From Lacrimispora amygdalina (lineage in GTDB: Bacteria; Bacillota; Clostridia; Lachnospirales; Lachnospiraceae): 64,000 nt of DNA. The stretch is from the NCBI RefSeq assembly GCF_003432035.1, contig NZ_QOHO01000012.1, positions 62,001 to 126,000 on the forward strand, given 5' to 3'. Each line of letters begins with the position of its first letter. Position 1 is the stretch's first letter. The position numbers were made by a program, and so were the translations under genes. Below are positions 7,660 to 61,628 of this stretch, one piece after another. The notes below the pieces were generated by a model. That model was not told the origin of the DNA, made no database searches, and worked only from the letters and a program-made list of their open reading frames with translations.

Positions 7660-10139
7660 TGTATATACTGAATATTCAGGATAAAGAGGCCGGTTCCGTC
7701 AGGATATCCGGTGGCAAGGGAGCCAGTCTTTCCAGACTTACCCGGCATTTTTCTGAGAAAGTTCCGGGTGGCTTTATTATTACAACAGAGTTTTTTAAGA
7801 ACTATATCCAGCCTGCCGTCATCCATGCCCAGGGTGATATAAAATCTGCCGTTGCCGGACTTACGCTGCCCGACGAAGCAGTAAAGTTAATTCAAACCGC
7901 CTATGACGGCCTGGGAGATAATATTTCCGTTGCAGTCCGATCCTCCGCCACAGCCGAGGATCTGCCGGATGCTTCTTTTGCAGGCCAGCAGGACACCTTT
8001 TTAAATGTTTCCGGTATGGAAGCAGTAACAAAAGCAGTCATCAACTGTTTTGCCTCTCTGTATAACCAGGGGGCAGTTTCCTACCGGGCAAAAAATGGAT
8101 TTGACGAAAGCGAAGTCCAAATGGCCGTAGTCGTACAAAAAATGGTGCAAGCAAAGGCGGCAGGGGTCATGTTTACCGCTGATCCCATAACCTCAGACCG
8201 TTTTACAACAGCCATTGAAGCAGTTGAAGGTCTTGGGGAAGAGCTGGTGTCCGGTCGTAAGACTCCGGTTACATGGACGGTCAAGGGAGGAATTGTTAAG
8301 AAAAGAAGCGGTGGGGAACCATGTCTTACGGAATCATTGGTAACCGCCCTTTCTGACATAGGGAAAAAAATTGAAAAGGTATTTGGCTGTCCACAGGATA
8401 TTGAATGGTGTTTTGACGGGGAGAAGTTCTACATCGTTCAGTCCCGGGCAATCACCACTCTTTTTCCATGTCCCCCATCTCCTGATGGTTTCAAACGCTG
8501 TTTTATTTCTGTCGGCCACTTACAGATGATGACCGACACCATGCTGCCCCTTGGCATGTCTCTTTGGAAATTGATGTCAAAAACTGTAAAGATCACGGAA
8601 GTGGGCGGGCGGCCCTATATGGAGATTACCCACAATCTAAACAGTCCGGCAGGCAAGATCCTGGTGAGGCAAAAGCTTTCCAATTCCGATGAACTTATGA
8701 ACAGCGCATTTAATCAGGTTCTGGAAAGAAAGGATTATATTAAATCCATTCCCAAAGGTCAGAAGAGCGACTTTGCAATACCAAAGGATGTGGCCAGGTG
8801 CATTACTGCCGGATTCAGAATCTACCGGAAAAACGATCCCGCCATCATTGACGGCTATAACCGACGCATGGAAGCGTTAATCCGGAAAACAAAAAAAGAA
8901 CTTGATCATCTGACCGGCAAGGCAGTGATCGATTACATTGTAAACGACACGGACAATCTCATGAAAAGCCTGTTTGACCCGGAAGGCCTTGGGCCTCTTA
9001 TGATCGCTTTCTTTCTCACAAAGCCTATAGATAAAGCGGGAAAACTCCTCCTTGGGAGGGACAATATAAGCGTTGATGTGTCAAAATCCATAAAGGGGAA
9101 CATCACCTCAGAAATGGGATTTTACGTCAGCCGTATTGCAGACGCAGTCAGAGATTATCCGGAGGCTGTAAAATACCTTGAAACAGCCGGGGACCGGTTT
9201 TGCATTGATGACTTAAAAAGACAGCAGGGCGGAGAGAAAGCTGCGAAAGCCTTTGAAGAATTTTTCTCCCGGTACGGTATGCGCTGTCCAGGGGAAATAG
9301 ATATTGCAAAGCTCCGTTTTGCCGAAGCACCAGGGAAAATCCTTCCTACCGTATTGGCCGATGTAAGACTCCCCAAGGGCCACGCAGAGCAAAGGTACCT
9401 TCAGGGACAGCGGGAAAGCAGGGAGGCGGTAAAAGCCATGGTTCTGGCTGCCAAAAAGAAATGGGGAATAAAGAAGGCCAGGAAGCTGGCAAAACAGCTT
9501 TCCTTTTACCGGAATTTCTTAGGCCTGAGGGAATCCCCGAAATATTACTGGATGAAACGCTATTGGGAATATAAACAGGCGGTCATCCGGGAATCTGAAA
9601 AGCTTGTGGAAACAGGCAGGCTAAGAAGAGTCGATGATGTTTTCTATTTAAGCCTTCCGGAGCTGGCCGGTTTATATAACAAAGAGCAGGAACCCGATTA
9701 TAAAAAAATCGATGCAATACGTGCAGATTATGAAAAGTACGCGTCTCTGACACCGCCCCGCCTCATCTTCTCTGACGGAGAAGTGGTGGAAGGGGAATAC
9801 AAACGCAAGGTTCCTGACGGGGCGCTTCCAGGGCTTGCCGTATCAGGCGGTATAACAGAGGGCCGGGCCAGGGTCATCCTGGACATAAAGGAAGCTGGAA
9901 AAATAGAAAAAGGTGATATTCTGGTAACAAAATTCACCGACCCCAGCTGGACCCCGGCATTTATTTCTGTGAGCGGACTTGTCACGGAGGTTGGCGGAAT
10001 GGCAACCCACGGAGCGGTCATCACACGGGAATACGGGCTGCCTGCGGTGGTGGGCGTGACCGATGCTACAAAGCACATAAAGGATGGTGACTGGATCCGT
10101 ATAAACGGCAATATGGGTTACGTTGAGTTTTTGAAATGA
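7659..10139 (+). CDS. Rifampin phosphotransferase-like PEP-synthase-family dikinase
   Basis: The protein (826 residues) has the three-part layout of rifampin phosphotransferase (Rph). It has an ATP-grasp domain like PEP synthase (about 1-275: SGGKGASLSRL, VRSSATAEDLPDASFAGQQDT, GVMFTADPIT, QDIEWCFDGEKFYIVQSRAI). A central helical substrate domain follows (280-705). The C-terminal swivelling phosphohistidine domain holds DPSWTPAF and GMATHGAVITREYGLPAVVGV, with His784 as the likely phospho-acceptor. Rph uses ATP and water to phosphorylate rifamycins. PEP synthase is the alternative, but the length and the DPSWTP motif favour the Rph group. A GTG at 7656 with better spacing to AAGGAGG is an alternative start. 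It is operon-linked to an ABC exporter. Confidence 0.78.
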   Translation: MYILNIQDKEAGSVRISGGKGASLSRLTRHFSEKVPGGFIITTEFFKNYIQPAVIHAQGDIKSAVAGLTLPDEAVKLIQTAYDGLGDNISVAVRSSATAEDLPDASFAGQQDTFLNVSGMEAVTKAVINCFASLYNQGAVSYRAKNGFDESEVQMAVVVQKMVQAKAAGVMFTADPITSDRFTTAIEAVEGLGEELVSGRKTPVTWTVKGGIVKKRSGGEPCLTESLVTALSDIGKKIEKVFGCPQDIEWCFDGEKFYIVQSRAITTLFPCPPSPDGFKRCFISVGHLQMMTDTMLPLGMSLWKLMSKTVKITEVGGRPYMEITHNLNSPAGKILVRQKLSNSDELMNSAFNQVLERKDYIKSIPKGQKSDFAIPKDVARCITAGFRIYRKNDPAIIDGYNRRMEALIRKTKKELDHLTGKAVIDYIVNDTDNLMKSLFDPEGLGPLMIAFFLTKPIDKAGKLLLGRDNISVDVSKSIKGNITSEMGFYVSRIADAVRDYPEAVKYLETAGDRFCIDDLKRQQGGEKAAKAFEEFFSRYGMRCPGEIDIAKLRFAEAPGKILPTVLADVRLPKGHAEQRYLQGQRESREAVKAMVLAAKKKWGIKKARKLAKQLSFYRNFLGLRESPKYYWMKRYWEYKQAVIRESEKLVETGRLRRVDDVFYLSLPELAGLYNKEQEPDYKKIDAIRADYEKYASLTPPRLIFSDGEVVEGEYKRKVPDGALPGLAVSGGITEGRARVILDIKEAGKIEKGDILVTKFTDPSWTPAFISVSGLVTEVGGMATHGAVITREYGLPAVVGVTDATKHIKDGDWIRINGNMGYVEFLK

Positions 10140-35272: not shown

Positions 35273-36547
35273 ATGAGAATTCAGCACAATATCGCAGCTT
35301 TAAACTCTTACAGACAGTTAGGAAGCAACAATGGTTCCGTATCTAAGAACCTTGAGAAATTATCTTCTGGTTACAGAATCAACCGCGCAGGTGATGACGC
35401 AGCTGGTCTTGCTATTTCTGAGAAGATGAGAGCACAGATCACAGGTCTTGAGACAGCTTCTAAGAACGCAAACGACGGTATTTCCTTAGTTCAGACCGCT
35501 GAAGGTGCTTTAACAGAAGTTCACTCCATGTTAAACCGTATGGTTGAGCTGGCTACACAGTCTGCAAACGGAACCTATCAGGATAATGTTGACCGTGAGA
35601 ACCTTAAGAAAGAGGTTGACTCTTTAAAGAGTGAAATTAACCGTATTTCTGAAGGTACAAACTTCAATGGAATCAACCTGTTAGATGGTAGCCTTGGTAA
35701 GACAACTGGAGCACCAAATACCATGGTTGCAACTGGAAGTACCATTGGAGCTACTGCTATAGTAACAAAGGCATCAGGTGCGTCTCTTTCTGTTAATGAT
35801 CCTGCAACCGCTGCTGTAAATGAATCTCAGACGGTTGGAATCACTGCTAACGCAGGCAAGATTACAGTAACAGTTACTAATAATGCTGATGGATCTTCCA
35901 AGACTTCAGTTATTGATTTGGCAGAAGTTACCACTCGTACGAATGGAGCAAATGCAGGACAGGCATTGGGTTCTGGTGCTAATGCTTTAAAAATAGGTGA
36001 AACAGCAAGCATCGATCTATCAAGTGTAGGTCTTGGTAGAATTGAGATTACAGGTGCTGGAGCAGGTGCAGATGCAGCATCTCTTGCAACTGGTTTAGCA
36101 AGTGCAATTTCAGGTCAAGGAACAGCACCTGTAGGATCAACTGTAGGTTCTGGTCTGGCATTGCAGATTGGGGATTCAGGTGAAGACTTTAATGCACTGA
36201 CAGTGAGCGTTGGTTCCATGAGTTCAAAAGCTCTTGGTCTTGATACCGTAGATGTCAGCACTCAGAGTGGTGCTAAAGCTGCTATTAAGACAATTAAAGA
36301 TGCAATTAATACAGTTTCTTCTACTCGTGGTGATTTAGGAGCTTTACAGAATCGTCTTGAGCATACAATTAACAACTTAGGTGTAACAACAGAGAACATG
36401 TCTGCAGCTGAGAGCCGTATTCGTGACGTAGATATGGCAAAAGAGATGATGAACTATACCAAGAATAACATTCTGGTTCAGTCTTCTCAGGCTATGTTGG
36501 CTCAGGCAAATCAGCTTCCTCAGGGTGTATTACAGTTATTAAAATAA
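35273..36547 (+). CDS. hag: Flagellin
   Basis: This secreted filament subunit (424 residues) has conserved terminal D0/D1 helices: MRIQHNIAALNSYRQLG, KLSSGYRINRAGDDAAGLAISEKMR and, at the end, AESRIRDVDMAKEMMNYTKNNILVQSSQAMLAQANQ. The middle (about 145-340) is a variable, Ser/Thr/Ala-rich surface domain, where glycans are usually attached. Length is somewhat above the shortest Firmicute flagellins. A sigma-D promoter and a structured leader precede it, and glycan genes lie on both sides. Confidence 0.96.
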   Translation: MRIQHNIAALNSYRQLGSNNGSVSKNLEKLSSGYRINRAGDDAAGLAISEKMRAQITGLETASKNANDGISLVQTAEGALTEVHSMLNRMVELATQSANGTYQDNVDRENLKKEVDSLKSEINRISEGTNFNGINLLDGSLGKTTGAPNTMVATGSTIGATAIVTKASGASLSVNDPATAAVNESQTVGITANAGKITVTVTNNADGSSKTSVIDLAEVTTRTNGANAGQALGSGANALKIGETASIDLSSVGLGRIEITGAGAGADAASLATGLASAISGQGTAPVGSTVGSGLALQIGDSGEDFNALTVSVGSMSSKALGLDTVDVSTQSGAKAAIKTIKDAINTVSSTRGDLGALQNRLEHTINNLGVTTENMSAAESRIRDVDMAKEMMNYTKNNILVQSSQAMLAQANQLPQGVLQLLK

Positions 36548-36579
36548 TATAATTTTCTAACTTATTTAAAACTAATTGT

Positions 36580-36608
36580 CCCTCGAAAAGCATAGATCTT
36601 TTCGGGGG
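36580..36608 (+). terminator. Weak terminator-like hairpin after hag
   Basis: CCCTCGAAAAG (36580-36590) pairs, with one G-T, with CTTTTCGGGGG (36598-36608). The tail ATATTCT is U-poor, so partial read-through into the glycosyltransferase gene is possible. Confidence 0.5.
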
Positions 36609-36638
36609 ATATTCTATAGAATTAGTGAGGTAACTGAT

Positions 36639-37961
36639 ATGTTACATTCTGTACGATTGTCTCAATGTATGATTGTCAAAAATGAGGAAAAAAACATCAG
36701 GAAAGCTTTGGAGTGGGGGAAAGGTACTGTTTTTGAACAGATTGTTGTTGATACAGGTTCAGATGACCGTACTGTTGAGATTGCCAAAGAGATGGGAGCG
36801 AAAGTTTTTCATTTTCCATGGATTGATGATTTTTCAGCAGCAAAGAATTTTGCAATCAGTAAAGCTAAAGGCTCTTGGATTGTATTTTTGGATGCAGATG
36901 AGTATTATTCAGCGGAAAGTACTACAAAGTTAATTCCCATCCTGGAGCAAATAGAAAATGGTATCTATGAAGCCAAAAGACCTCATGCAGTGAGGAGTTC
37001 ATTGTTGAATTTGGATGATAAGGGACAGGTTTTTTCAACTGGGATACAAGACAGAATATTTTGCAATATGCCTACATTGCGTTATCAGAATCGAATACAT
37101 GAATCGTTATATATTTCAGATGGTAGTGAAATGCTTGTCGTAGACGCATCAAGAGAGCTGATTATTTACCATACTGGTTATACAAAACAAATTTATCAAG
37201 AAACCGGCAAACTAGAACGAAATGTTCGAATGCTTCGAAGCGAAGTAGCGGAGCACTCTGATGATTATAATGCATGGTCTTATTTAGGGGATTCTCTGTT
37301 TGCGATGGAATCTTATGACGAAGCAGAAGAGGCTTATTTACATGTAATAGCCAATGGGGACAGAGTCCTTTCGGAGGGAAGAAAGGAAGCAGTATTCTGC
37401 AATTATTTTAAGTTGAAATATCTAAATGATTCGGGGATAGAAGAAGAACTTTGTGATATTTATGAGAAAGCAAAAGCCATTGGGTGTACATCTCCGGATT
37501 TGGAATGTTGGTTTGGTTACTGGTACTATAAAAAAGAGGATAAAAAGAAAGCTGTTTTATATTTTGAAAGAGCACTGCAATTACTTGATCAATACCATGG
37601 AACTAGTTTTTTAGATATATCTGGTGCATTAATTGAAATATACCAAATTCTGTTTTATATATATAGGGAATTTGGACAGGTTTCTGAAATGATAAGGTAT
37701 GGTGTATTGGCGCTAAGGATGGATTTGTACTTAATGCCGATACTTAAAGATATTATTTGTCTTTTAAAGACTGAAAAGGGAGAAATCCTTACTGGAGAGT
37801 CAACTTTTAATTTTCTTTTAAAATTATATAATCCAACTTCGCTGAAAAATAAGTTGTTTTTGTTGAAAGCAGCGGAATTAGCAGATTTTTCTGCATTGGA
37901 AAGACGGATTTATGGATTGTTCTCAGTAGAAGAAAAAAGTATACTGGATAATAGTCAATAG
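36639..37961 (+). CDS. GT2 glycosyltransferase with TPR-like region (SunS-like)
   Basis: The protein (440 residues) opens with a GT2 domain (1-230): LSQCMIVKNEEKNIRKAL, VVDTGSDDRTVEIAKEMGAKVFHFPW and the metal site FLDADEYY (about 83-90). Helical TPR-like repeats fill 215-430 (AWSYLGDSLFAMESYDEAEEAYL). It resembles peptide/protein S- or O-glycosyltransferases of the SunS type, so protein glycosylation is likely. The start at 36639 follows GTGAGGT; the frame extends to 36576 through the hag terminator and is not family-like. It is directly downstream of hag, and flagellin is the obvious acceptor. Confidence 0.82.
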   Translation: MLHSVRLSQCMIVKNEEKNIRKALEWGKGTVFEQIVVDTGSDDRTVEIAKEMGAKVFHFPWIDDFSAAKNFAISKAKGSWIVFLDADEYYSAESTTKLIPILEQIENGIYEAKRPHAVRSSLLNLDDKGQVFSTGIQDRIFCNMPTLRYQNRIHESLYISDGSEMLVVDASRELIIYHTGYTKQIYQETGKLERNVRMLRSEVAEHSDDYNAWSYLGDSLFAMESYDEAEEAYLHVIANGDRVLSEGRKEAVFCNYFKLKYLNDSGIEEELCDIYEKAKAIGCTSPDLECWFGYWYYKKEDKKKAVLYFERALQLLDQYHGTSFLDISGALIEIYQILFYIYREFGQVSEMIRYGVLALRMDLYLMPILKDIICLLKTEKGEILTGESTFNFLLKLYNPTSLKNKLFLLKAAELADFSALERRIYGLFSVEEKSILDNSQ

Positions 37962-38163
37962 GAAAGAGCCTTTGGTTTTTAAGGTGATGAATATTAAGAA
38001 AATATCAATATATGTCGAAATATATTTTGCAATAAAGGATAAGGTCGACGTAGAAAGTGTTTTTATGTACATATGGGATTGGGTTTGTTATAAAAATTTA
38101 ATGATGATGATAAATTAGTTCATTGTAAATAAATGGCAATTTGCCATGGGAGGTGTGGCGAGA

Positions 38164-39090
38164 TTGAAGATTTCCGTGATTATGCTTACATATAACCGGG
38201 GAAAGTTGGTTAGCAGAGCTATAGAGAGTATATTAAATCAGACCTTTCGTGATTTTGAGTTTATAATTGTCGATAATGGCTCTACGGATCTAAGCGGTGT
38301 AATAGCTGATTCATATGCTGCCAAAGACAGCCGTATTCGAGTCATTCATAGGGAACGTGGTAATATTGGTTCCGGACGCAATACGGGCCTCGATATTGCA
38401 AATGGTGAATGGATTGCTTTTGTTGACGATGATGATTGGTGTGAGCCAGATTTCCTTGAATTTCTGATAGATTTGGCCATGGAAAATAATGCTGATATAG
38501 CAATTTGCGGGGCAGAAAAGGAGGAAAATGGTCGACATTCACTTATTGGCATTGAGGAAAAGGTTGTGCTTAATGCTGAAGAGGCAATAATTGAATTAAT
38601 GTGGCGTAAACGTTTTAATAACGGATTTCCTACAAAGCTGTTTAAAAGTTCCCTGCTATCAGAACTTCGTTTTCCAGAAACCGGGCTTTATGATGATATT
38701 CACTTAATGTATAAGGCGATAGCAGCTGCAAATTCTATAGTTTCATATGGAATAGTAAAATATCATGTTTATCGTCATGAGGGAAATAATTCTGCTGCAA
38801 CTTCACAAGACAGAATGATTACTTCACAGTACCTTTGTGATTACCGCGCAGCTTATCGTGAACGGACAATTTGGCTCTGTGAACGATTCCCGTCTAACAC
38901 TTATTATTGGTGTTATTTTGAATGGTCATTTATGATCTCTATGGTGAATAAAATCATTAAAAATGACCTTACGGGTTGTACAATTCACCTTAACGAAATG
39001 CAACAGGAGCTTTCGAGACATCGTGAAAAATTTATAAATGCGCCATGGATACTTGAATATGAAAGAGAGTGGGTATGCAAATATGCGTAA
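38164..39090 (+). CDS. GT2 glycosyltransferase
   Basis: The protein (308 residues) is a classic GT-A family 2 enzyme: KISVIMLTYNRGKLVSRAIESIL, FIIVDNGSTD, NIGSGRNTGLDIANGEW and the metal site FVDDDDWCEPDF (about 88-99). The acceptor-side region (200-308) is unrecognised. The start is uncertain: TTG at 38164 is ten bases after GGAGG and gives the family-typical opening, whereas the ATG at 38146 precedes that ribosome site. It begins a run of tightly packed genes up to 43362. Base composition here is clearly more AT-rich than in the flanks. Confidence 0.82.
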   Translation: MKISVIMLTYNRGKLVSRAIESILNQTFRDFEFIIVDNGSTDLSGVIADSYAAKDSRIRVIHRERGNIGSGRNTGLDIANGEWIAFVDDDDWCEPDFLEFLIDLAMENNADIAICGAEKEENGRHSLIGIEEKVVLNAEEAIIELMWRKRFNNGFPTKLFKSSLLSELRFPETGLYDDIHLMYKAIAAANSIVSYGIVKYHVYRHEGNNSAATSQDRMITSQYLCDYRAAYRERTIWLCERFPSNTYYWCYFEWSFMISMVNKIIKNDLTGCTIHLNEMQQELSRHREKFINAPWILEYEREWVCKYA

Positions 39091-39904
39091 ACTCGCAGAA
39101 CAACTGATACAAAAGGCAAACGGTAGAAAAATCGTTGTAATTGGTGCAGGGACATTTACTTCTGTTAATATGCGTTTGTTAATAGAACTTGGAATTGAAA
39201 TAAGCTTTTTTGTTGATGCAGATTACAGTAATCGGAAATTTTTTGAATATCAGACTGGTTTTAAGGTAATGCCGTATTGTTCGATTAATCGTGATGAGCA
39301 TTATGCTTTTATATTTCAGATAACCGATAGTGTAGTGAGTTCAATAATTTCTGAGTTAAAAGAAATTGGATATAAAGAACAGGATTATTCCTCATGGACG
39401 GAACTCTCTAATCGTAATTTAGTATATAAAAATATGACTATTGGTAAAAGGGTAAGTTCGTACGATGCTATTTTGGGCTGGAGTTCATTGGTAAACTCTA
39501 TTGGGCATTATTCATCAATAAATCGCACTGTTCAAGTCGTAGCTGACCATAATATACAACATCTTACAATTTCTTCCTGCATGAGTGCTGCTCCTCCTGC
39601 AATGACACACAGCTTAACAATAGGAAATGATGTCTGGATAGGCGCAAATGTGATTATTAACGCTTCACGAGTAAAAAGCATTGGTAATGGAGCTATCATT
39701 GGTTCTGGAGCAGTTGTGCTTGAAGATGTTCCAGCTTATGCAGTTGTAGCAGGAGTACCGGGAAAAGTAAAGAAGTATCGTTTTAGCAAACCCCAAATCG
39801 ATATACTCCAACGAGTGAGATGGTGGGACTGGGATGAACTTACGTTAAAAGCAAACTCAGACTGTTTTACTGATATCAATATATTTTTTGAAAGATTTTG
39901 TTAG
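39083..39904 (+). CDS. PglD-like sugar O/N-acetyltransferase (Rossmann N-terminus plus left-handed beta-helix)
   Basis: The protein (273 residues) has an N-terminal nucleotide/sugar-binding Rossmann-like part (about 12-110; KIVVIGAGTFTSVNMRLLIELG). A hexapeptide-repeat acetyltransferase domain follows (about 130-255; IGNDVWIGANVIINASRVKSIGNGAIIGSGAVV, VVAGVPGKVKKYRF, RVRWWDWDE). It would acetylate a sugar nucleotide or glycan with acetyl-CoA. The catalytic His is probably in ADHNIQHLT. Its start overlaps the previous stop by eight bases (ATGCGTAA), so translation is coupled. The helix part resembles the acyltransferase at 16115. Confidence 0.8.
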   Translation: MRKLAEQLIQKANGRKIVVIGAGTFTSVNMRLLIELGIEISFFVDADYSNRKFFEYQTGFKVMPYCSINRDEHYAFIFQITDSVVSSIISELKEIGYKEQDYSSWTELSNRNLVYKNMTIGKRVSSYDAILGWSSLVNSIGHYSSINRTVQVVADHNIQHLTISSCMSAAPPAMTHSLTIGNDVWIGANVIINASRVKSIGNGAIIGSGAVVLEDVPAYAVVAGVPGKVKKYRFSKPQIDILQRVRWWDWDELTLKANSDCFTDINIFFERFC

Positions 39905-39954: not shown

Positions 39955-40989
39955 ATGGCACAAATCAGTAACATTTATCATAAGAAGCGGGTTCAGCTTT
40001 GGACCGTAATACCACTGGACACTCCATTTGTAATTGAAGTGGAACCTGTAAGTTATTGCAATATTAAATGTAAGTACTGCCTGCATTCGCTTCCAAAGAA
40101 AGAAATATTAGACAGTGGTCATAAGTTTGAGTATATGAGCGATGAATTATTTGATCTCATGTTAAAACAAATTAATGAGTTCCCCAATCGGATAAAACAA
40201 ATTGGGTTTGCTGGGATGGGAGAACCATTATTACATAAAAAACTGCCTTTTATGATTGAAAAGTTAAAAAAGTATGCGGGTATTCAAAGAATAACAATAA
40301 CAACAAATGGTATTGCGTTGTCTCATCAACTTACAGATGATTTAATAAACGCGGGATTAGACCATATTAAGATTTCAGTCAACGGAATTTCAGAAGAGGA
40401 TTTTAGAAAAAATTGTGCAGCGGAAGTTGATTTTGATAAGTATCTTGAACAAATTGAATATTTTTACCATCACAAAGGCGGAGCCGAAATCGCCTGTAAA
40501 ACTATGGATACTTGTATTGGTGAAGATGAAAATGTTTTTTATGAAATGTTTAAAAATATTTGTGATACTATGAGTATTGAAAAAACAATCAAGGTTTTTC
40601 ATGAAGTTTCATACGACAATATGATAAGTGATGATAATAAAGTGTTAAGTCGATATGATATGCGGAATGAAGAGGTGAGAGTTTGCGCTTCACCATTTTT
40701 TAGATTCGCAGTGAAGGCAGATGGTCAGGTATCTGCATGCAGGTTATATAATGGTTTGACTTTTCCTGACTTTAATATTAAAAACAGGAGTCTTTTCGAT
40801 ATATGGAATAGTGAGGAACGTCACAATATGCTGTTAGGTGTGTTAAAAGAAAAAACCGATGGGTTAAATTCCTATTGCAAAGACTGCACATTAAAAGATG
40901 ATTTTGCTTTTGAATCGGATTTGTTAGACGATCATGCAGAAGAATTATATAATAAATTAATTCGCGCGTGGGAGGAGAGAAATTTATGA
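39955..40989 (+). CDS. Radical SAM/SPASM-domain enzyme of the glycan island
   Basis: The protein (344 residues) shows the radical SAM C-x3-C-x2-C motif in EPVSYCNIKCKYCLHS (about residues 31-42), a glycine-rich GFAGMGEPLLHKKL, and TITTNGIAL. The C-terminal SPASM-like segment carries extra cysteines (RVCASPFFRF, VSACRLYNG, YCKDCTL) for a second Fe-S cluster. Relatives modify sugars (epimerisation, deoxygenation) or peptides. In this context, modification of a nucleotide-sugar or glycan is the best guess. GGAGGATT precedes the ATG. It overlaps the pyruvyl transferase by four bases. Confidence 0.8.
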   Translation: MAQISNIYHKKRVQLWTVIPLDTPFVIEVEPVSYCNIKCKYCLHSLPKKEILDSGHKFEYMSDELFDLMLKQINEFPNRIKQIGFAGMGEPLLHKKLPFMIEKLKKYAGIQRITITTNGIALSHQLTDDLINAGLDHIKISVNGISEEDFRKNCAAEVDFDKYLEQIEYFYHHKGGAEIACKTMDTCIGEDENVFYEMFKNICDTMSIEKTIKVFHEVSYDNMISDDNKVLSRYDMRNEEVRVCASPFFRFAVKADGQVSACRLYNGLTFPDFNIKNRSLFDIWNSEERHNMLLGVLKEKTDGLNSYCKDCTLKDDFAFESDLLDDHAEELYNKLIRAWEERNL

Positions 40990-42104
40990 AACAAAGATTC
41001 CTCATATATGGTCATGGAGGTTGTTATAACCATGGTGGAGAAGCATTAGCGCTGTGCGGAATAGAGGTTTTGCGCGAACGTTTTCCAGATTGTCACATTA
41101 TAGTTTCTTCACATAATCCGGATCAAGACCATGAATTCCATCTGCCTGCTGATGAAGTAGTAGGGCGTGATGAGACTTATTTGTCTTCTGAAATCAGTTC
41201 TAAATATTCGATTGAGAATAATGACAAAATATATAAGTCAACAATAGATCGAATAACTTCAGATACAATTTGTATTCATCTTGGTGGTGATAATTATTGC
41301 TATTCTAATTGGATGAGATACGCCAATATTCACTATAGGGCTATTGAAAAAGGTGCTAAAAGTATATTATGGAGTTGTTCAGTAGATCCGGATAAAATAG
41401 ATAAGGATATGCTTGAAGCATTAAGAACGCATCATTTAATTACTGCAAGAGAAGATGTAACTTATAAAGCATTAATAGAACGTGGAATAAAACAAGTCGT
41501 AAAAGTATCCGACATCGCGTTTCGGCTTGCGCCGAGTGCAGTTCCATTTGAACTTGACAATTATGTCAGTATAACATTTGGTCCGCTTGCTGCAAAAAAA
41601 GAAAAGGTTAGTGGAATAGCTTTACACTGTTTTCAGAATTTAGTGGATTACATACTTGCTGAAACGGACCTGAATATAGCTTTAGTACCCCACGTTATTT
41701 GTAAAACAGATAGTGATATTGAAATGATGTCACAGATTAATACACATAATTCACCACGTATTCGCCTTATATCTGAACGTTATTCAGCATCGCAGTTAAA
41801 ATACATTATCGGTGGTGCGAGATTTTCTGTTACACTTCGGACTCACGCGTCCATTGCCGCATATTCATCCTATGTTCCAACGTTAGTAATAGGTTATTCT
41901 GTTAAATCTAAGGGGATAGCCAAAGATTTAGATTTATCGGAATACGTACTACCAGTTAAAGAATTACGAAGGGATTTTGATATAGTAAATGCTTTTAAAA
42001 AACTTGTTGATGATGAAAATGTCATAAAAAATAAGTTACTTCAAAATATTCCACAATACGTAAAAAACTCAATTACAGAAGAATCGTTTGATTTTAATAG
42101 TTAG
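40986..42104 (+). CDS. Polysaccharide pyruvyl transferase family protein
   Basis: The protein (372 residues) matches the pyruvyl transferase family: MKQRFLIYGHGGCYNHGGEALALCGI at the start, HLGGDNYCYSNWMRYANIH, and late ISERYSASQLKYIIGGARFSVTLRTHASIAAYS. CsaB/WcaK-type members attach a pyruvate ketal from PEP to cell-surface sugars, adding negative charge. The ATG overlaps the previous stop (ATGA), and GGGAGGAG precedes it. Amid glycosyltransferases it probably caps the same glycan. The catalytic His is likely the one in LRTHAS. Confidence 0.82.
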   Translation: MKQRFLIYGHGGCYNHGGEALALCGIEVLRERFPDCHIIVSSHNPDQDHEFHLPADEVVGRDETYLSSEISSKYSIENNDKIYKSTIDRITSDTICIHLGGDNYCYSNWMRYANIHYRAIEKGAKSILWSCSVDPDKIDKDMLEALRTHHLITAREDVTYKALIERGIKQVVKVSDIAFRLAPSAVPFELDNYVSITFGPLAAKKEKVSGIALHCFQNLVDYILAETDLNIALVPHVICKTDSDIEMMSQINTHNSPRIRLISERYSASQLKYIIGGARFSVTLRTHASIAAYSSYVPTLVIGYSVKSKGIAKDLDLSEYVLPVKELRRDFDIVNAFKKLVDDENVIKNKLLQNIPQYVKNSITEESFDFNS

Positions 42105-42114
42105 GTAGGAGATA

Positions 42115-43362
42115 ATGAGCCGTATTTACATTCAAACAATCGCATATAACGCACAATCAACAATTCACCGTTGTGTAAAAAGTATATTGAATCAGACTTA
42201 CAGAGGGGATATAACCTGGGATATATTAGACAATGGTAGCAATGATGACACATTACAGATCCTGCTTAAGTATGCGGAACAAAATCCTCAGTTGAATATA
42301 TATCATATTGATAAGAATTGCAGTCCTAACGATGATAAAGAACATGCTATTTGGGATAGATTTTACCGAAGAACCGGACTTGACATTTGCGATGATAATT
42401 ATTTTTGTTTATTAGATAGTGATGATGAGTATAAATGTGACTTTATTGAAAAAGCACTTTATTTTATGAACGAAAATAGTCTGGATATAGTTGCGGTTGG
42501 AAGTGATTTTATAAACTCAAAAACGAATACTATTGGGGGGATTAGAAAAATCCAACAGAATTTAGTTTTATCAGATGCAAAAGCATATAGTGAATATTTT
42601 TCGGAGTATCATCAGTTCTTCCGGACGGTTTGGGGAAAGTTATATAAGATGTCTCTTTTAAAAGATTATTTACGAAACGATATGTTAAGTTACGGTAATG
42701 ATACATGGTTTGCTTTTTACACTATGGCTCAAGCTGAACGCGTTGGAATCCTTGCCGAATCTTTGCATAAATACTATATTTCACCTAAATCTGTATCATA
42801 TAAATGGGACTCAAAACGCATAGATTCTGATGTTATCCTTCATAAAATGGCAAATGATTTTCTAATGAATAGATGTGGAATTGTTACATCTCATAATGAA
42901 GAATTTTTGTTATTGGTTTATATGAATGCAATTAAGGATACGCTGAATGTGTTATTGAATTCAGATGTTTCAGATGAGGAGAAACTCGTTAATGTTCTTA
43001 ATATCTTTTCACATCAATACACAAAGCAACTTGCAGCTCGCAATCAGCTCGGGGCATTGTGCGGTAGTATTTCTTTATTTACCGGACAGCGTAAAGACTT
43101 ATTTAAGATTGTTATGGATTGGTTACTTGCACGTGAAGAAGTGCAGGATGAGCAAATGGAGCACTTTTGTCAGGTTGGCGAATTTATATGTGCTGTGGTG
43201 GAGAATGCGAGTGGTTGGGTGTTTTTCAACAAAATATTAATAGAATATCTAATTGACATGGGGCGTGTAGACGATGCGAAAATTAAATTGTTCGATATTC
43301 TGGAATTGATACCCGATGACAATGAACTTTTATCTATGAAAGAAAAATTAGAGTCTAATTAA
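42115..43362 (+). CDS. GT2 glycosyltransferase with helical C-terminal region
   Basis: The protein (415 residues) has a GT2 domain (1-235): YIQTIAYNAQSTIHRCVKSILNQTYRG, WDILDNGSNDDT and the metal site LLDSDDEYKCDF (about 100-111), intact. Residues 240-415 are helical, with LLAREEVQDEQMEHFCQVGEF. That half is shared with the N-terminal half of the 799-residue protein at 44719, so the two are paralogues. It ends the tightly packed run; an IS66 remnant begins four bases after its stop. Confidence 0.82.
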   Translation: MSRIYIQTIAYNAQSTIHRCVKSILNQTYRGDITWDILDNGSNDDTLQILLKYAEQNPQLNIYHIDKNCSPNDDKEHAIWDRFYRRTGLDICDDNYFCLLDSDDEYKCDFIEKALYFMNENSLDIVAVGSDFINSKTNTIGGIRKIQQNLVLSDAKAYSEYFSEYHQFFRTVWGKLYKMSLLKDYLRNDMLSYGNDTWFAFYTMAQAERVGILAESLHKYYISPKSVSYKWDSKRIDSDVILHKMANDFLMNRCGIVTSHNEEFLLLVYMNAIKDTLNVLLNSDVSDEEKLVNVLNIFSHQYTKQLAARNQLGALCGSISLFTGQRKDLFKIVMDWLLAREEVQDEQMEHFCQVGEFICAVVENASGWVFFNKILIEYLIDMGRVDDAKIKLFDILELIPDDNELLSMKEKLESN

Positions 43363-43369
43363 GATGTAA

Positions 43370-43621
43370 GTGCTTCAAAAGATGGCGTCATTCCATATGC
43401 ATTTTAAAAATGGTATTCTTCCACAATATGATTATCAACTGGTGTTACTGGAAGATACATTTGTTGAAGTCCTGGTCAATGATCCGTCAAAAGAAAAGAA
43501 AACTGGTGCAGCCAGCCGCGAAATAATCGTCAATTGGAAGGACTTTTCAATTTTTGTAAATGACGCACAACACATTCCATTCTTGGCAGAACTGATGCAA
43601 AAGCTGGTGAGAGAATGCTGA
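43370..43621 (+). pseudogene. IS66 accessory protein TnpA remnant
   Basis: This is an 83-residue frame whose last part (REIIVNWKDFSIFVNDAQHIPFLAELMQKLVREC in outline) has the pattern of the TnpA C terminus of IS66 elements: a short beta segment, then a helix of the LLAELI-x-x-L kind. The DNA-binding N-terminal part found in full TnpA is missing. The stop overlaps the TnpB start as in intact elements. It is probably not functional. Confidence 0.5.
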
Positions 43622-43936: not shown

Positions 43937-44123
43937 GATAAAACAATCTGCTGTGAAATACATCAGATAATCCCATTTTTATTTGACTGAAAGATTTAAA
44001 ATCAGAGGTGAGAATTTGCTTTGTTTACACAAAGGGAATCCATACGCAGATAAATTTAAGCATCATATGCCATTAAGGGATGCGCCCCCCGGCTTTTTCC
44101 GATGTGTTGATTAAATTCGTGAT

Positions 44124-44460
44124 TTACTGACACTTTTTAGCACCAGTACTATGCTGATGAACTTTTACAGAGGTAGAGTCTATACTCAGATTTTTATATT
44201 CAGCATCTTCATTTAGAGACTGAAAAATCTTCAATAATGTTCCATCATCACGCCATTTGCAAAAACGGCTATATACCGTTTTCCATGAGCCAAAGCGCTC
44301 TGGGAGGTCACGCCAGGCAGGGCCACTTCTTGCAAGCTATAGAATTGTATTAAACATAAGGTGATTATCTAATAGGAGGACGCCCTGTCTTTGCAGCTGG
44401 AAATAAATTTTGAATTTGTATCCATTGTTCTTCTGATATTTCAAAACGCTTTTGTGCCAT
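44124..44460 (-). pseudogene. IS5-family transposase remnant (N-terminal part, frameshifted)
   Basis: On the minus strand the ATG at 44460 gives MAQKRFEISEEQWIQIQNLFPA, then GRPPI and a frameshift. It continues with WRDLPERFGSWKTVYSRFCKWRDDG, SLNEDAEYKNLSIDSTSVKVHQHS and GAKKCQ before a stop. This is the start of an IS5 (IS427-like) DDE transposase. Only the first catalytic Asp region (IDSTSV) remains; the rest is gone. It is inactive debris inserted within the glycan island. Confidence 0.8.
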
Positions 44461-44718
44461 ATTAAAAATATCTAAGTTTTTTCTTTATATTTTAACTAAA
44501 ACTTGATCTTTGTTCAATTTATAGTTTTCAGATACGCCCTAGGCGAAAACTTGTCGAATTTGATATTAATGATATTACTGCGTTTTACTTCAAACATTGT
44601 AGACTGGTAAAGAATTTAAATATCTTATACCCAATTTTTTATTTAAGTTTGAAGGTTCATGCTGAGTCATAATAAGTATATCAGTTAGAAATAGCCTTTC
44701 TAGAAAGAGGAAAATGAA

Positions 44719-47118
44719 ATGATATATATAATTACAACAACCCATAACTCAAAAAAAATGTTAAGTCGAGCTGTAGATAGTGTGCTTAGGCAATCATATA
44801 GTGATTTTGTGTATTATCTTATAGACTGTGCAACAACAGATGAAACAAGGCAAATGATTTGTAACTATGCATTAAAGGACAAGCGAATCCGTGTGGTTTA
44901 TGATAATGATAGCTCAAATATAGAAAATATATTGTCGCGTAAATTTTCTGAAAATGATTATATCTGCACTCTTGATGTCAATCATGCATACGATCCAATA
45001 TTTCTAGAAACGATGTTGCAGTTTGCGTCTGAATATGATTTAGATATTGCATGTTGCGGTAGCGATAAGTTCGGTATCGCAGAAGAAGTAAATTCCTCAG
45101 TAAGTGTAGACAAAACACTTGTATTAAAAGCTGAAGAATTCTCCACGTATTTCACTGAATACTTTGAGTTTATGAAGTTTATTGAAGGAAAGCTATATAG
45201 GGCGACGTTAGGGAGTAAATGTATTGAGAAAAATAAAGATTCACTAGGGAATTGTACAGACTTAGATGATTTTGAAAAAGTATCATCTGCGTTTCAAAAC
45301 TCACAACGTATTGGATTTTTTTCGAAAATATTGCATTATGAATATGCTAACCCAGAAGTAATCACAAACGCAGAAAAATTAGATAATTTTCATAAAGATA
45401 ATCTTCGCTATGAACAAGTTTTCAACTATCTTATGCAGATTAAAGCCGATTGCCCACGTAATATAGAGTTTTTACTCTATTTATACATGAACGGAATGGA
45501 AGAAACACTTCAAACATTGCTGACAAAAACTATTAAGGATTCCGAAAAAATTGACATTCTATTTGAGATTCTTATGTGCCCAGCCTCAAGAAAATTAGCA
45601 TCAGAATCGCAATTAGGTACGCATTTCGGTCAAAATGAGCAATGGACCGCAAAACGTAACCGGATATTTGTTGCTTTGAGGGATTGGTTGCTCTCGCGTG
45701 AGGAAGTGTCGGATGAGCAGGTTGAGCGTTATTGTGCTATTGGAGAAATCGCAGCTGCAATAACGGAAACTTCAGATGCATGGATATCGTTCAAAAAAAT
45801 TCGTGTGCAATTTTTGGTGGAAAATAAACGCTACGGGGAAGCTAATACATATATAAAAGAACTTAGAGAATTAATACCGCAGGATTCTGAGGTGGCTTCC
45901 ATTAACTATAAATTAGAATCAATTATGTCTCGTCATCCCCAAAAAGTAGCTATTATAGGCGTAAATGATTATGGAATGTTCCTTAAACAGAGAATTGACC
46001 AAAGTGGTGATGAATATAACCTTATCGTTTTCTGTGATGAGACAGGGAAAAGTATAGATAAGTATTTAGATAACAAGAAAATAGTATCATTAGAAGTTCT
46101 TACTCAAATGTATAAAAATCTGGAAATTGACACTATTATTATTGCTAATGTTTGTAATGCATATCGAGCGATACAAAATGCGCTTCGTTTACTTGGAGTT
46201 CCTGAATTCTATGTAGTAAACCAGTTTTATTACATGCGCCACGTTGAAAAAGGTGATTTGGCAAGTGAACTGATTAGAGTAGATGTCAATAAGCCGGATT
46301 TAAAATACTATGAGACACACGTTGTAGATCATTGCAACCTAAATTGCAAGGCCTGTAGTCACTATTGTAATTTAATTAAAGAACCTAAAATGTGCGATCT
46401 GGAACAGTATCATAAGGATGTACGGAAGCTGGGTGATCTTTGGTGGAATGTATCAAGGTTAAGGCTCATGGGTGGTGAGCCATTACTGAATCCTGAGCTG
46501 CCAGAATGGATTAAGGTTACACGCGAGGTGTTTCCGGCAGCCGATTTGTCTGTTGTTACGAATGGATTGCTTCTTGGCGAGCATCTGGCTCCGTTATTTG
46601 AAGTTATGAGAAACTGTCGCTGTGTATTTCATATCTCGGCATATCCTCCGATCTATGAAAAACGTGAACAAGTTGCTGCCCTTCTAAAAAAGCATGGTGT
46701 ATATTGGGGGTGGAGCGGTGATACTATCCCAATACAATCCTTCAACAAGTCCGTTATACTGAATGAATCGTATATTGGAGATCCTGCTGATTCGTGGACA
46801 CGTAGAAAATGCGGCTCAACTATATTATGTAATTTTTTGCGTGATGGTTACCTATATCCTTGTGGTTCTGGTGCACTAAATTACATATTTGAAGATTGTT
46901 ATGGGGTGAAAACGAGGCAGTATTTCGATACCGAAGTATCAAAACTCAGGATTGACTTGCACAATACTAAGCTTGATGGATGGGAGCTAAATAATATACT
47001 AGATAAACCGCATGAGGCATGCAGATACTGTAACCCTGATCGAAAAATCGAAACTGTCCCTTGGACAGCACGTGGAAAAATTAATGTACCAATGTGTGAT
47101 TGGGTGATCGATTGCTAA
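44719..47118 (+). CDS. Three-part fusion: GT2-like, Rossmann-like and radical SAM domains
   Basis: The 799-residue protein joins modules that are separate elsewhere in the island. Residues 1-230 are a GT2 domain (IYIITTTHNSKKMLSRAVDSVLRQSY), but the usual DNGSxD is DCATTDE and the metal site is LDVNHAYD, so catalysis is doubtful. Residues 240-405 are helical and paralogous to the C-terminal half of the gene at 42115. Residues 409-520 are Rossmann-like (KVAIIGVNDYGMFLKQRI). Residues about 530-790 are a radical SAM domain with Cys539, Cys543 and Cys546 (HCNLNCKACSHYC), LMGGEPLLNPEL and later cysteines (LYPCGSG, CRYCNPD). A sugar- or glycan-modifying role is inferred from context. AGAGGAAAA precedes the ATG. 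Confidence 0.8.
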   Translation: MIYIITTTHNSKKMLSRAVDSVLRQSYSDFVYYLIDCATTDETRQMICNYALKDKRIRVVYDNDSSNIENILSRKFSENDYICTLDVNHAYDPIFLETMLQFASEYDLDIACCGSDKFGIAEEVNSSVSVDKTLVLKAEEFSTYFTEYFEFMKFIEGKLYRATLGSKCIEKNKDSLGNCTDLDDFEKVSSAFQNSQRIGFFSKILHYEYANPEVITNAEKLDNFHKDNLRYEQVFNYLMQIKADCPRNIEFLLYLYMNGMEETLQTLLTKTIKDSEKIDILFEILMCPASRKLASESQLGTHFGQNEQWTAKRNRIFVALRDWLLSREEVSDEQVERYCAIGEIAAAITETSDAWISFKKIRVQFLVENKRYGEANTYIKELRELIPQDSEVASINYKLESIMSRHPQKVAIIGVNDYGMFLKQRIDQSGDEYNLIVFCDETGKSIDKYLDNKKIVSLEVLTQMYKNLEIDTIIIANVCNAYRAIQNALRLLGVPEFYVVNQFYYMRHVEKGDLASELIRVDVNKPDLKYYETHVVDHCNLNCKACSHYCNLIKEPKMCDLEQYHKDVRKLGDLWWNVSRLRLMGGEPLLNPELPEWIKVTREVFPAADLSVVTNGLLLGEHLAPLFEVMRNCRCVFHISAYPPIYEKREQVAALLKKHGVYWGWSGDTIPIQSFNKSVILNESYIGDPADSWTRRKCGSTILCNFLRDGYLYPCGSGALNYIFEDCYGVKTRQYFDTEVSKLRIDLHNTKLDGWELNNILDKPHEACRYCNPDRKIETVPWTARGKINVPMCDWVIDC

Positions 47119-47137: not shown

Positions 47138-47220
47138 TTAAGTGCTTCAAAAGATGGTGTACTATTCGGTTTACATTATTTATGCTAAGCTGAAGGCATC
47201 ATTTTTTGAAGCATTTTTTA
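47138..47220 (+). repeat. IS66-end-like repeat forming an imperfect hairpin with a T run
   Basis: TTAAGTGCTTCAAAAGATGGTGT (47138-47160) repeats the sequence at 43366-43388 with two differences. TGCTTCAAAAGATGGTG (47143-47159) is also inverted as CATCATTTTTTGAAGCA (47197-47213), followed by TTTTTTA. It may be a leftover element end that now terminates transcription after the fusion gene. Confidence 0.55.
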
Positions 47221-47769: not shown

Positions 47770-47823
47770 CGAATACGTCATAATGGCAGATTGCCGGTAG
47801 AAATGAAAGTGAGGAACAATCCG

Positions 47824-48204
47824 ATGAATGCAATTTTTGGGAACAGCATTTCCATGGCGGAAAAATCTCTGGATTATTTGTGGTCAAAGCAGCAGACGAC
47901 ACTTAATAATATCGCGAATGGTGAAACCCCCGGCTATAAGGCCAAGTATGTGACCTTCGAAGACGAATTTCGCAACAGGCTGTCGGCAGCGAGGAGAGGT
48001 ACTTCTGCGGAAATCGGTAAGATTATCAATGGCTCCAGATACTATGTGCGAAACACCAATGATGAATCTGCAAGATTAGATGGCAATAATGTCAATACAG
48101 ATGTGGAGAATGTGGAACTTGCAAGGACTACCCTGCAGTATCAATATGAACTGAATTCTTTAAACAGTGATATCAGCAGACTTCGTACAATTATTAAAGG
48201 TTAA
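47824..48204 (+). CDS. flgB: Flagellar basal body rod protein FlgB
   Basis: This proximal rod subunit (126 residues) is exported through the flagellar type III system. It shows SLDYLWSKQQTTLNNIANGETPGYKAKYVTFEDEF, the rod-family N-terminal helix with NNIANxxTPGYK, and a C-terminal helix (VELARTTLQYQYELNSLNSDISRLRTIIKG in outline). GAGG at 47811-47814 decides the start at 47824; an upstream TTG at 47791 is not family-like. It leads the operon. flgC, which normally follows, is displaced to 61182. Confidence 0.92.
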   Translation: MNAIFGNSISMAEKSLDYLWSKQQTTLNNIANGETPGYKAKYVTFEDEFRNRLSAARRGTSAEIGKIINGSRYYVRNTNDESARLDGNNVNTDVENVELARTTLQYQYELNSLNSDISRLRTIIKG

Positions 48205-61157: not shown

Positions 61158-61181
61158 GCTGATTCATTGAGGAGGGTACAA

Positions 61182-61628
61182 ATGTCGTTTTTAAGTTCGA
61201 TGAATATTAGTGCGTCAGCTATGACTGCTCAGCGTCTCAGACTTGATATTGCATCACAAAATATCGCGAATATCGATACCACCAAAACGGCTTCCGGCGG
61301 CCCATACCGAAGAAGAATGGTGGTCCTTGAAGCGCAGAATGAAAACAATTTCCGCAGAACCTTAATGAATGCAGCAGGAAAAAGCCGCCAGCAGAGCGCA
61401 GGCGGAGTCAGGGTATCACAGATAGTGGAAGATACCAGTCCTTTGAAATCCGTTTACGACCCGGAGCATCCGGATGCAGATGAGAACGGCTATGTTCAGA
61501 TGCCTAATGTGGATCTGATAAAGGAAACAGTAGACAGCATGTCTGCAACCAGGTCCTATGAAGCCAATATAACCGCATTTAATGCCATAAAAATGATGGC
61601 TTCCAAGGCTTTGGAGATTGGGAAATAA
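61182..61628 (+). CDS. flgC: Flagellar basal body rod protein FlgC (displaced in the operon)
   Basis: This rod subunit (148 residues) shows FLSSMNISASAMTAQRLRLDIASQNIANIDTTKT, the FlgC-type N-terminal helix, and a C terminus with VQMPNVDLIKETVDSMSATRSYEANITAFNAIKMMASKALEIG. GGAGGG precedes the ATG at 61182, and the TTG at 61167 lies before that ribosome site and is rejected. It normally lies between flgB and fliE; here it sits 13 kb downstream between cheY and fliY. Confidence 0.93.
   Translation: MSFLSSMNISASAMTAQRLRLDIASQNIANIDTTKTASGGPYRRRMVVLEAQNENNFRRTLMNAAGKSRQQSAGGVRVSQIVEDTSPLKSVYDPEHPDADENGYVQMPNVDLIKETVDSMSATRSYEANITAFNAIKMMASKALEIGK

Follow-up and report, generated by a model that had tools for sequence, protein, structure and literature searches.

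We describe here a gene of Lacrimispora amygdalina that joins a glycosyltransferase family 2 (GT2) domain to a radical S-adenosylmethionine (SAM) enzyme in a single frame of 799 residues (44719..47118, + strand). It lies in a 64,000-nucleotide stretch of contig NZ_QOHO01000012.1 (positions 62,001 to 126,000 of the forward strand), referred to below as the window. The frame, the folds and the setting of this fusion gene, within a glycan island next to the flagellin gene, are confirmed. Its homology makes it well supported that the radical SAM half is a sugar-acting enzyme of the twitch type, and we see an even chance that the fusion gene product is a tailoring enzyme of flagellin or other surface glycans, whose C-terminal half is a twitch radical SAM enzyme like SpeY.

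Results

The fusion gene begins with an ATG that has the ribosome-site-like AAGAGG a short way 5' of it, and the same 44719-47118 frame is present in the whole genome sequence, which, being the window's own assembly, is not an independent source. Since homologues cover both halves and two families are matched, a chance origin of a 799-codon frame is ruled out. An earlier note, made from the sequence alone, had claimed that the protein runs from a GT2 through helices and a Rossmann domain to a radical SAM domain, and this order is borne out by Pfam and by AlphaFold2 models. Glycos_transf_2 (residues 4-127, E 4e-15) and Radical_SAM (residues 536-628, E 1.3e-6) are both matched in the one frame, the latter at 29.1 bits with the whole protein, below the cut-off of 29.5, and at 31.6 bits with the C-terminal half alone. 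The models were made for the two halves separately rather than for the full-length chain, and have a predicted local distance difference test score (pLDDT) of 83.1 and a predicted template modelling score (pTM) of 0.73 for the N-half, and a pLDDT of 90.7 and a pTM of 0.91 for the C-half. All on the + strand, the frame holds a GT-A (GT2) domain (residues 1-210, 44719..45348), a helical region (residues 217-400, 45367..45918), a Rossmann domain (residues 408-520, 45940..46278) and, by Pfam, model and fold comparison, a radical SAM core (about residues 527-660, 46297..46700). In G+C content the two halves of the gene (0.345 and 0.385) resemble the rest of the island (0.33-0.38) more than they do fliF and fliI (0.43-0.44).

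Judging by their borders, the halves appear to be two complete genes joined end to start, with a single chain as the likely product, because the ends of the separate forms meet at the joint and no internal ribosome site is seen there. A separate GT2 paralogue of 415 residues in the island (42115..43362, +; 31-32% identical to the fused GT2, DxD intact) aligns with fusion residues 1-400 and stops, at the end of the helical region, where the fusion continues; stand-alone Rossmann-radical SAM proteins in other genomes start near fusion residue 403-409; and Met403 (45925..45927, +), close to where the stand-alone form begins, has no purine-rich ribosome site in its 25 preceding bases.

The solved structure closest by far to the C-half is that of SpeY, whose fold the C-half shares across both the core and the twitch region, and the next radical SAM enzyme is BtrN. 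The CX3CX2C motif claimed earlier is present as C539, C543 and C546 (46333..46356, +), each being Cys in all 49 rows of an alignment of the window protein and 48 relatives hand-picked from 80 loci, and the claimed extra C-terminal cysteines are likewise there and conserved, as C698, C704, C715, C768 and C771 of the twitch region (46810..47031, +). Four of them occupy the cysteine places of SpeY, with C704 in addition; these equivalences are taken from a separate comparison with SpeY and not from a twitch-only profile, which is weak alone (SpeY at E 0.36). The general pattern for one four-cysteine auxiliary cluster, C-x11-G-x4-C ... CxxC, is matched, as a sequence pattern alone, by C698-x11-G710-x4-C715 ... 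C768xxC771. The additional C704 is kept in 71 of 77 radical SAM rows, and SpeY has Ser in its place; this census, like the radical SAM tree used below, leaves aside three rows of fewer than 180 aligned residues and one locus lacking a radical SAM frame.

Other kinds of radical SAM enzyme were considered as well. Full SPASM enzymes, which hold two auxiliary clusters, have seven C-terminal cysteines with a CX2CX5CX3C run; the fusion protein has only five that are conserved and no such run. A cobalamin-dependent methylase, a kind that has an N-terminal cobalamin-binding domain, seems less likely, with no match to a B12-binding Pfam domain at E 0.01 among the 49 members scanned and the Rossmann domain closest to 3nkl (titled UDP-D-quinovosamine 4-dehydrogenase), its nearest solved fold, and to Rex. 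No peptide-binding Pfam domain was named among the same members.

The N-terminal half has the GT-A fold, and the loss of GT2 motifs supposed in the earlier note proves to be partial. The second Asp of DxD is gone, the fused GT2 reading D86-V87-N88 followed by His89 (Asn88 codon, 44980..44982, +). In a census of 126 GT2 domains from the relatives' loci, window proteins excluded, Asp fills column 88 in 117 of 118 domains (115 of 116 once near copies are removed). Asp36, Asp41 and Asp86 are retained, as is Asp184, which we take to be the catalytic base of GT2 enzymes and whose column is Asp in 79 of the 81 relatives that have a residue there. From this pattern, loss of GT2 activity in the fusion is likely.

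Joining of a GT2 to this radical SAM domain is not unique to the window. In an Oscillospiraceae metagenome-assembled genome (MAG; locus L063), a GT2, helical repeats, an FkbM methyltransferase and a Rossmann domain share one frame, which passes by a frame change into a radical SAM domain that is the sister of the window's (support 100/99 in the radical SAM tree). Rossmann and radical SAM domains of the two are about 50% identical and the GT2 domains 28%; window residues 325-399 have a repeat-like second match in L063. In a Gastranaerophilales MAG (L139) a different GT2 is joined to a radical SAM domain, likewise with a frame change. The window and L063 joinings may have arisen independently. 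The GT2 trees do not settle the matter: with 17 rows, the fusion GT2s come together as a single clade in 16% of bootstrap trees, and a 7-row tree that carries a long-branch warning groups them at 59/60. At a further locus (L039, 7697-10063) a GT2 with an apparent C-terminal Rossmann domain of its own lies directly upstream of a stand-alone Rossmann-radical SAM gene, an arrangement that could give rise to a fusion. An apparent 788-residue frame of another genome (G264) is in fact two separate genes with stops between them.

Among 299 Lachnospiraceae genomes, one per genus, the radical SAM family was found at E 1e-40 or better in 15 genomes at 16 places, at 15 of which it stands alone in a frame of 275-411 residues; only in the window genome is it fused. 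Halves that always occur as separate genes would have told against the reading of the earlier note, and this is almost the case, but the L063 sister follows a GT2 from the same subfamily within a single array. A scan of genome contigs with the single sequence gave no match, and a profile scan gave at least 290 confirmed relatives among 584 stretches, the best 80 of which were kept as loci (radical SAM frame detected by BLAST in 79); record titles of relatives include Elusimicrobia, Verrucomicrobia, Actinomycetota and archaea. Plasmid and phage origin is rejected, tblastn with the whole protein giving no match in plasmids and three weak partial matches in phages.

Flagellin lies within the fetched stretch at eight of the best 80 loci (L064, L065, L067, L069, L092, L093, L101 and L108; seven of them at E under 1e-10), and the radical SAM half belongs to a family of separate genes; the novelty that the earlier note saw in such an enzyme beside flagellin must therefore be given up. 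On the radical SAM tree, window included, the flagellin label requires 6 changes against a shuffled mean of 8.7, with 3 of 500 shuffles as low. Glycosyltransferases are the commonest neighbour families among 90 neighbours scanned (hand-picked from 141), yet a minority of all, and LicD, DUF4422, FkbM and DUF3880 genes are present in flagellin-linked loci. In L092 a PF01973 (MptE-like) gene (8124-9989), presumably of the Maf flagellin-glycosylation family, directly precedes the stand-alone radical SAM gene and follows the flagellin gene by 0.4 kb.

As the earlier note had it, the fusion gene stands beside flagellin, within a glycan island bordered on one side by the flagellin gene (35273..36547, +; Flagellin_N E 7e-45, Flagellin_C E 3e-31). 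Six island genes separate the two: two GT2 genes (36576-37961 and 38146-39090, both +), a hexapeptide-repeat acyltransferase-like gene (39038-39904, +; weak Pfam match, E 0.001), a second radical SAM gene of SPASM type (39955..40989, +; Radical_SAM E 3e-18, SPASM E 5e-9), a polysaccharide pyruvyl transferase family gene (40968..42104, +; Pfam E 6e-27) and the 415-residue GT2 paralogue. Beyond the fusion follow flgB, fliE and fliF, the far border being a flgB-like gene (47791..48204, +) named from sequence reading, with no Pfam match. A flgC-like rod gene (61167-61628; Flg_bb_rod, Flg_bbr_C) is 13 kb from flgB rather than adjoining it. Between the GT2 paralogue and the fusion gene lies a broken remnant resembling an insertion-sequence transposase (about 44050-44470, minus strand; named from frame reading), and because a 22-base direct repeat with one mismatch (43367-43388 and 47139-47160) flanks remnant and fusion gene, this block may leave or enter by recombination.

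In 20 further stretches upstream of fliF from the genus, the cargo before flgB varies between species, some near relatives being alike; flagellin was recognised in eight of these stretches, one is short, and for those in which it was not recognised the listing covers just the nine frames preceding flgB. One of the 20 (L171) has a CX3CX2C radical SAM frame, and another genome (G312) has two radical SAM genes inside its hag-flgB interval. This variable content fits exchangeable glycan cassettes. Since further radical SAM genes share the same glycan clusters (window 39955-40989; L161, reverse complement, 8094-9807; L063 1777-2586), a single glycan may be worked on by more than one radical enzyme. 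Pseudobutyrivibrio ruminis OR77, formerly Butyrivibrio fibrisolvens, is reported to have glycosylated flagella (PMC2914790).

Discussion

How would such an enzyme work? We infer its substrate, reaction, cluster ligands and the roles of C704 and of the GT2 half, as well as flagellin rather than another glycan as its target. A core [4Fe-4S] cluster at C539, C543 and C546 would cleave SAM, and the resulting 5'-deoxyadenosyl radical would abstract hydrogen from a hydroxyl-bearing sugar carbon, while C698, C715, C768 and C771 would hold an auxiliary cluster. C704 is a candidate hydrogen donor to the opposite face of that carbon, and because this fifth cysteine could return hydrogen on the other face, our first guess is inversion, as in HygY and NeoN; our second, following SpeY and BtrN, is oxidation to a keto sugar. 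With one metal-site Asp of DxD lost, the most likely role of the GT2 half in this strain is to bind a nucleotide sugar or growing glycan, with poor transfer; we hypothesise that the glycan is bound there and delivered to the radical SAM site. Since the L063 sister array has a GT2 with intact DxD, the older form probably performed transfer and then radical editing within one chain. The broadest version of this proposal, a widespread family of twitch radical SAM epimerases that edits assembled flagellin or surface glycans, the fused former glycosyltransferase docking the glycan or sugar nucleotide, is tentative and rather improbable as a whole.

Several observations weigh against the proposed tailoring of flagellin or surface glycans. 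The window holds the sole intact fusion seen, because the joinings in L063 and L139 both carry frame changes. Among 25 genomes of the genus searched, a few of them incomplete, only the window genome has the fusion intact: the search of 23 others did not find it, and all that is left of it in G321 (L055), whose island is 95.8% identical over 5.4 kb, is a remnant of 213 bases, the front part of flgB having gone with the missing stretch. The fusion gene is thus dispensable. For the GT2 half there is no close orthologue that could reveal selection on it. The modified glycan, moreover, may be other than that of flagellin, since in G306 a GT2-radical SAM-pyruvyl-GT2 set is situated away from hag, 72 of the best 80 loci lack flagellin in the fetched stretch, many stretches being short, and most of the 90 scanned neighbours fall outside the listed glycosyltransferase families. 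To our knowledge no activity or glycan is known for any member of the family, and the substrates of SpeY, BtrN, HygY and NeoN are small antibiotic-type molecules, not protein-bound glycans.

Of the other explanations, the one that survives best, and that we hold to be possible, overlaps our second guess: the radical SAM half would be a dehydrogenase like SpeY and BtrN, its auxiliary cluster taking a sugar hydroxyl to a ketone that other enzymes elaborate. The two nearest radical SAM structures speak for it, the first being titled a dehydrogenase and the second catalysing a two-electron oxidation with a four-Cys auxiliary cluster. However, the family conserves a fifth twitch cysteine, Ser in SpeY; in HygY a single cysteine reportedly separates epimerase from dehydrogenase, going by a paper's title; and no keto-sugar aminotransferase or reductase is among the island genes scanned.

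Less probable, and different from our proposal only in the GT2 half, is that the halves are independent catalytic domains acting in turn, the GT2 being active with an Asn/His-modified site. The four retained Asp residues and the intact DxD of the L063 sister favour this; the near-invariant Asp of column 88 argues against it.

We further doubt that the gene is in decay within an island of changing content, an accidental join to a degenerate GT2 that yields no useful product. The DxD loss, the adjoining insertion-sequence remnant, the loss in G321, the frame changes in L063 and L139 and the content before flgB, which differs in most of the 20 genus stretches, would all agree with decay. Yet 799 codons are open, GGEP and the cysteines of both core and twitch region are intact, model confidence is high, and a sister array in so distant a family speaks for an old joining. 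That the target of the radical SAM half is an amino acid in flagellin or some other protein, in the manner of a maturase of ribosomally synthesised and post-translationally modified peptides and with GT2 and Rossmann domains as accessories, is quite improbable, as peptide enzymes rank far below SpeY, no peptide-binding domain is named by Pfam for the 49 members scanned and glycosyltransferases are the commonest neighbours.

The fusion near flagellin, with its radical SAM half resembling an enzyme that reworks a sugar in antibiotic synthesis, points to possible radical editing of flagellar or other surface sugars. The SpeY-like fold occurs in genes next to glycosyltransferases, in some cases also near flagellin, in Lachnospiraceae and in further phyla. 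If the idea holds, bacteria would alter their surface glycans through radical inversion or oxidation, producing sugar isomers not foreseen from nucleotide-sugar pathways; if our idea of C704 is true, one cysteine would separate epimerase from dehydrogenase.

Antibiotic pathways are the known setting of radical SAM sugar chemistry. SpeY (PDB 7wzv, 7wzx, 7x0b; titled twitch radical SAM dehydrogenase), which works in spectinomycin synthesis, is 21% identical to the C-half and differs from the fusion in being a 322-residue chain without room for Rossmann and GT2 domains and in its Ser at the place of C704. The radical SAM sugar epimerases HygY and NeoN, compared by description and not by sequence, may be alike in using an extra cysteine as hydrogen donor and are unlike in serving antibiotics rather than surface glycans; we know of no fused form of either. 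When compared with the GT2 enzymes CgT/GalT1 (5hea), TarP, TarS and SpsA, the fusion protein differs by the Asn at a metal-site Asp of DxD. In NeoN, the extra cysteine acting as hydrogen donor is Cys249 (PMC10991966). BtrN (4m7t, 4m7s) resembles the C-half in its twitch fold and four-Cys auxiliary cluster, here a sequence pattern, and performs a carbinol oxidation, described in PMC9012708 as the two-electron oxidation of 2-deoxy-scyllo-inosamine (2-DOIA). A literature search of titles and abstract openings, with most subscription journals beyond reach, gave no radical SAM enzyme acting on a flagellin glycan. Sources on Campylobacter place a radical SAM metalloprotein in a C. jejuni capsule cluster (PMC8743553) and describe phase-variable radical SAM genes (PMC6321876). 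Measured against these systems, the fold itself is not new; what is new is the setting of the radical SAM family and its fusion to a GT2.
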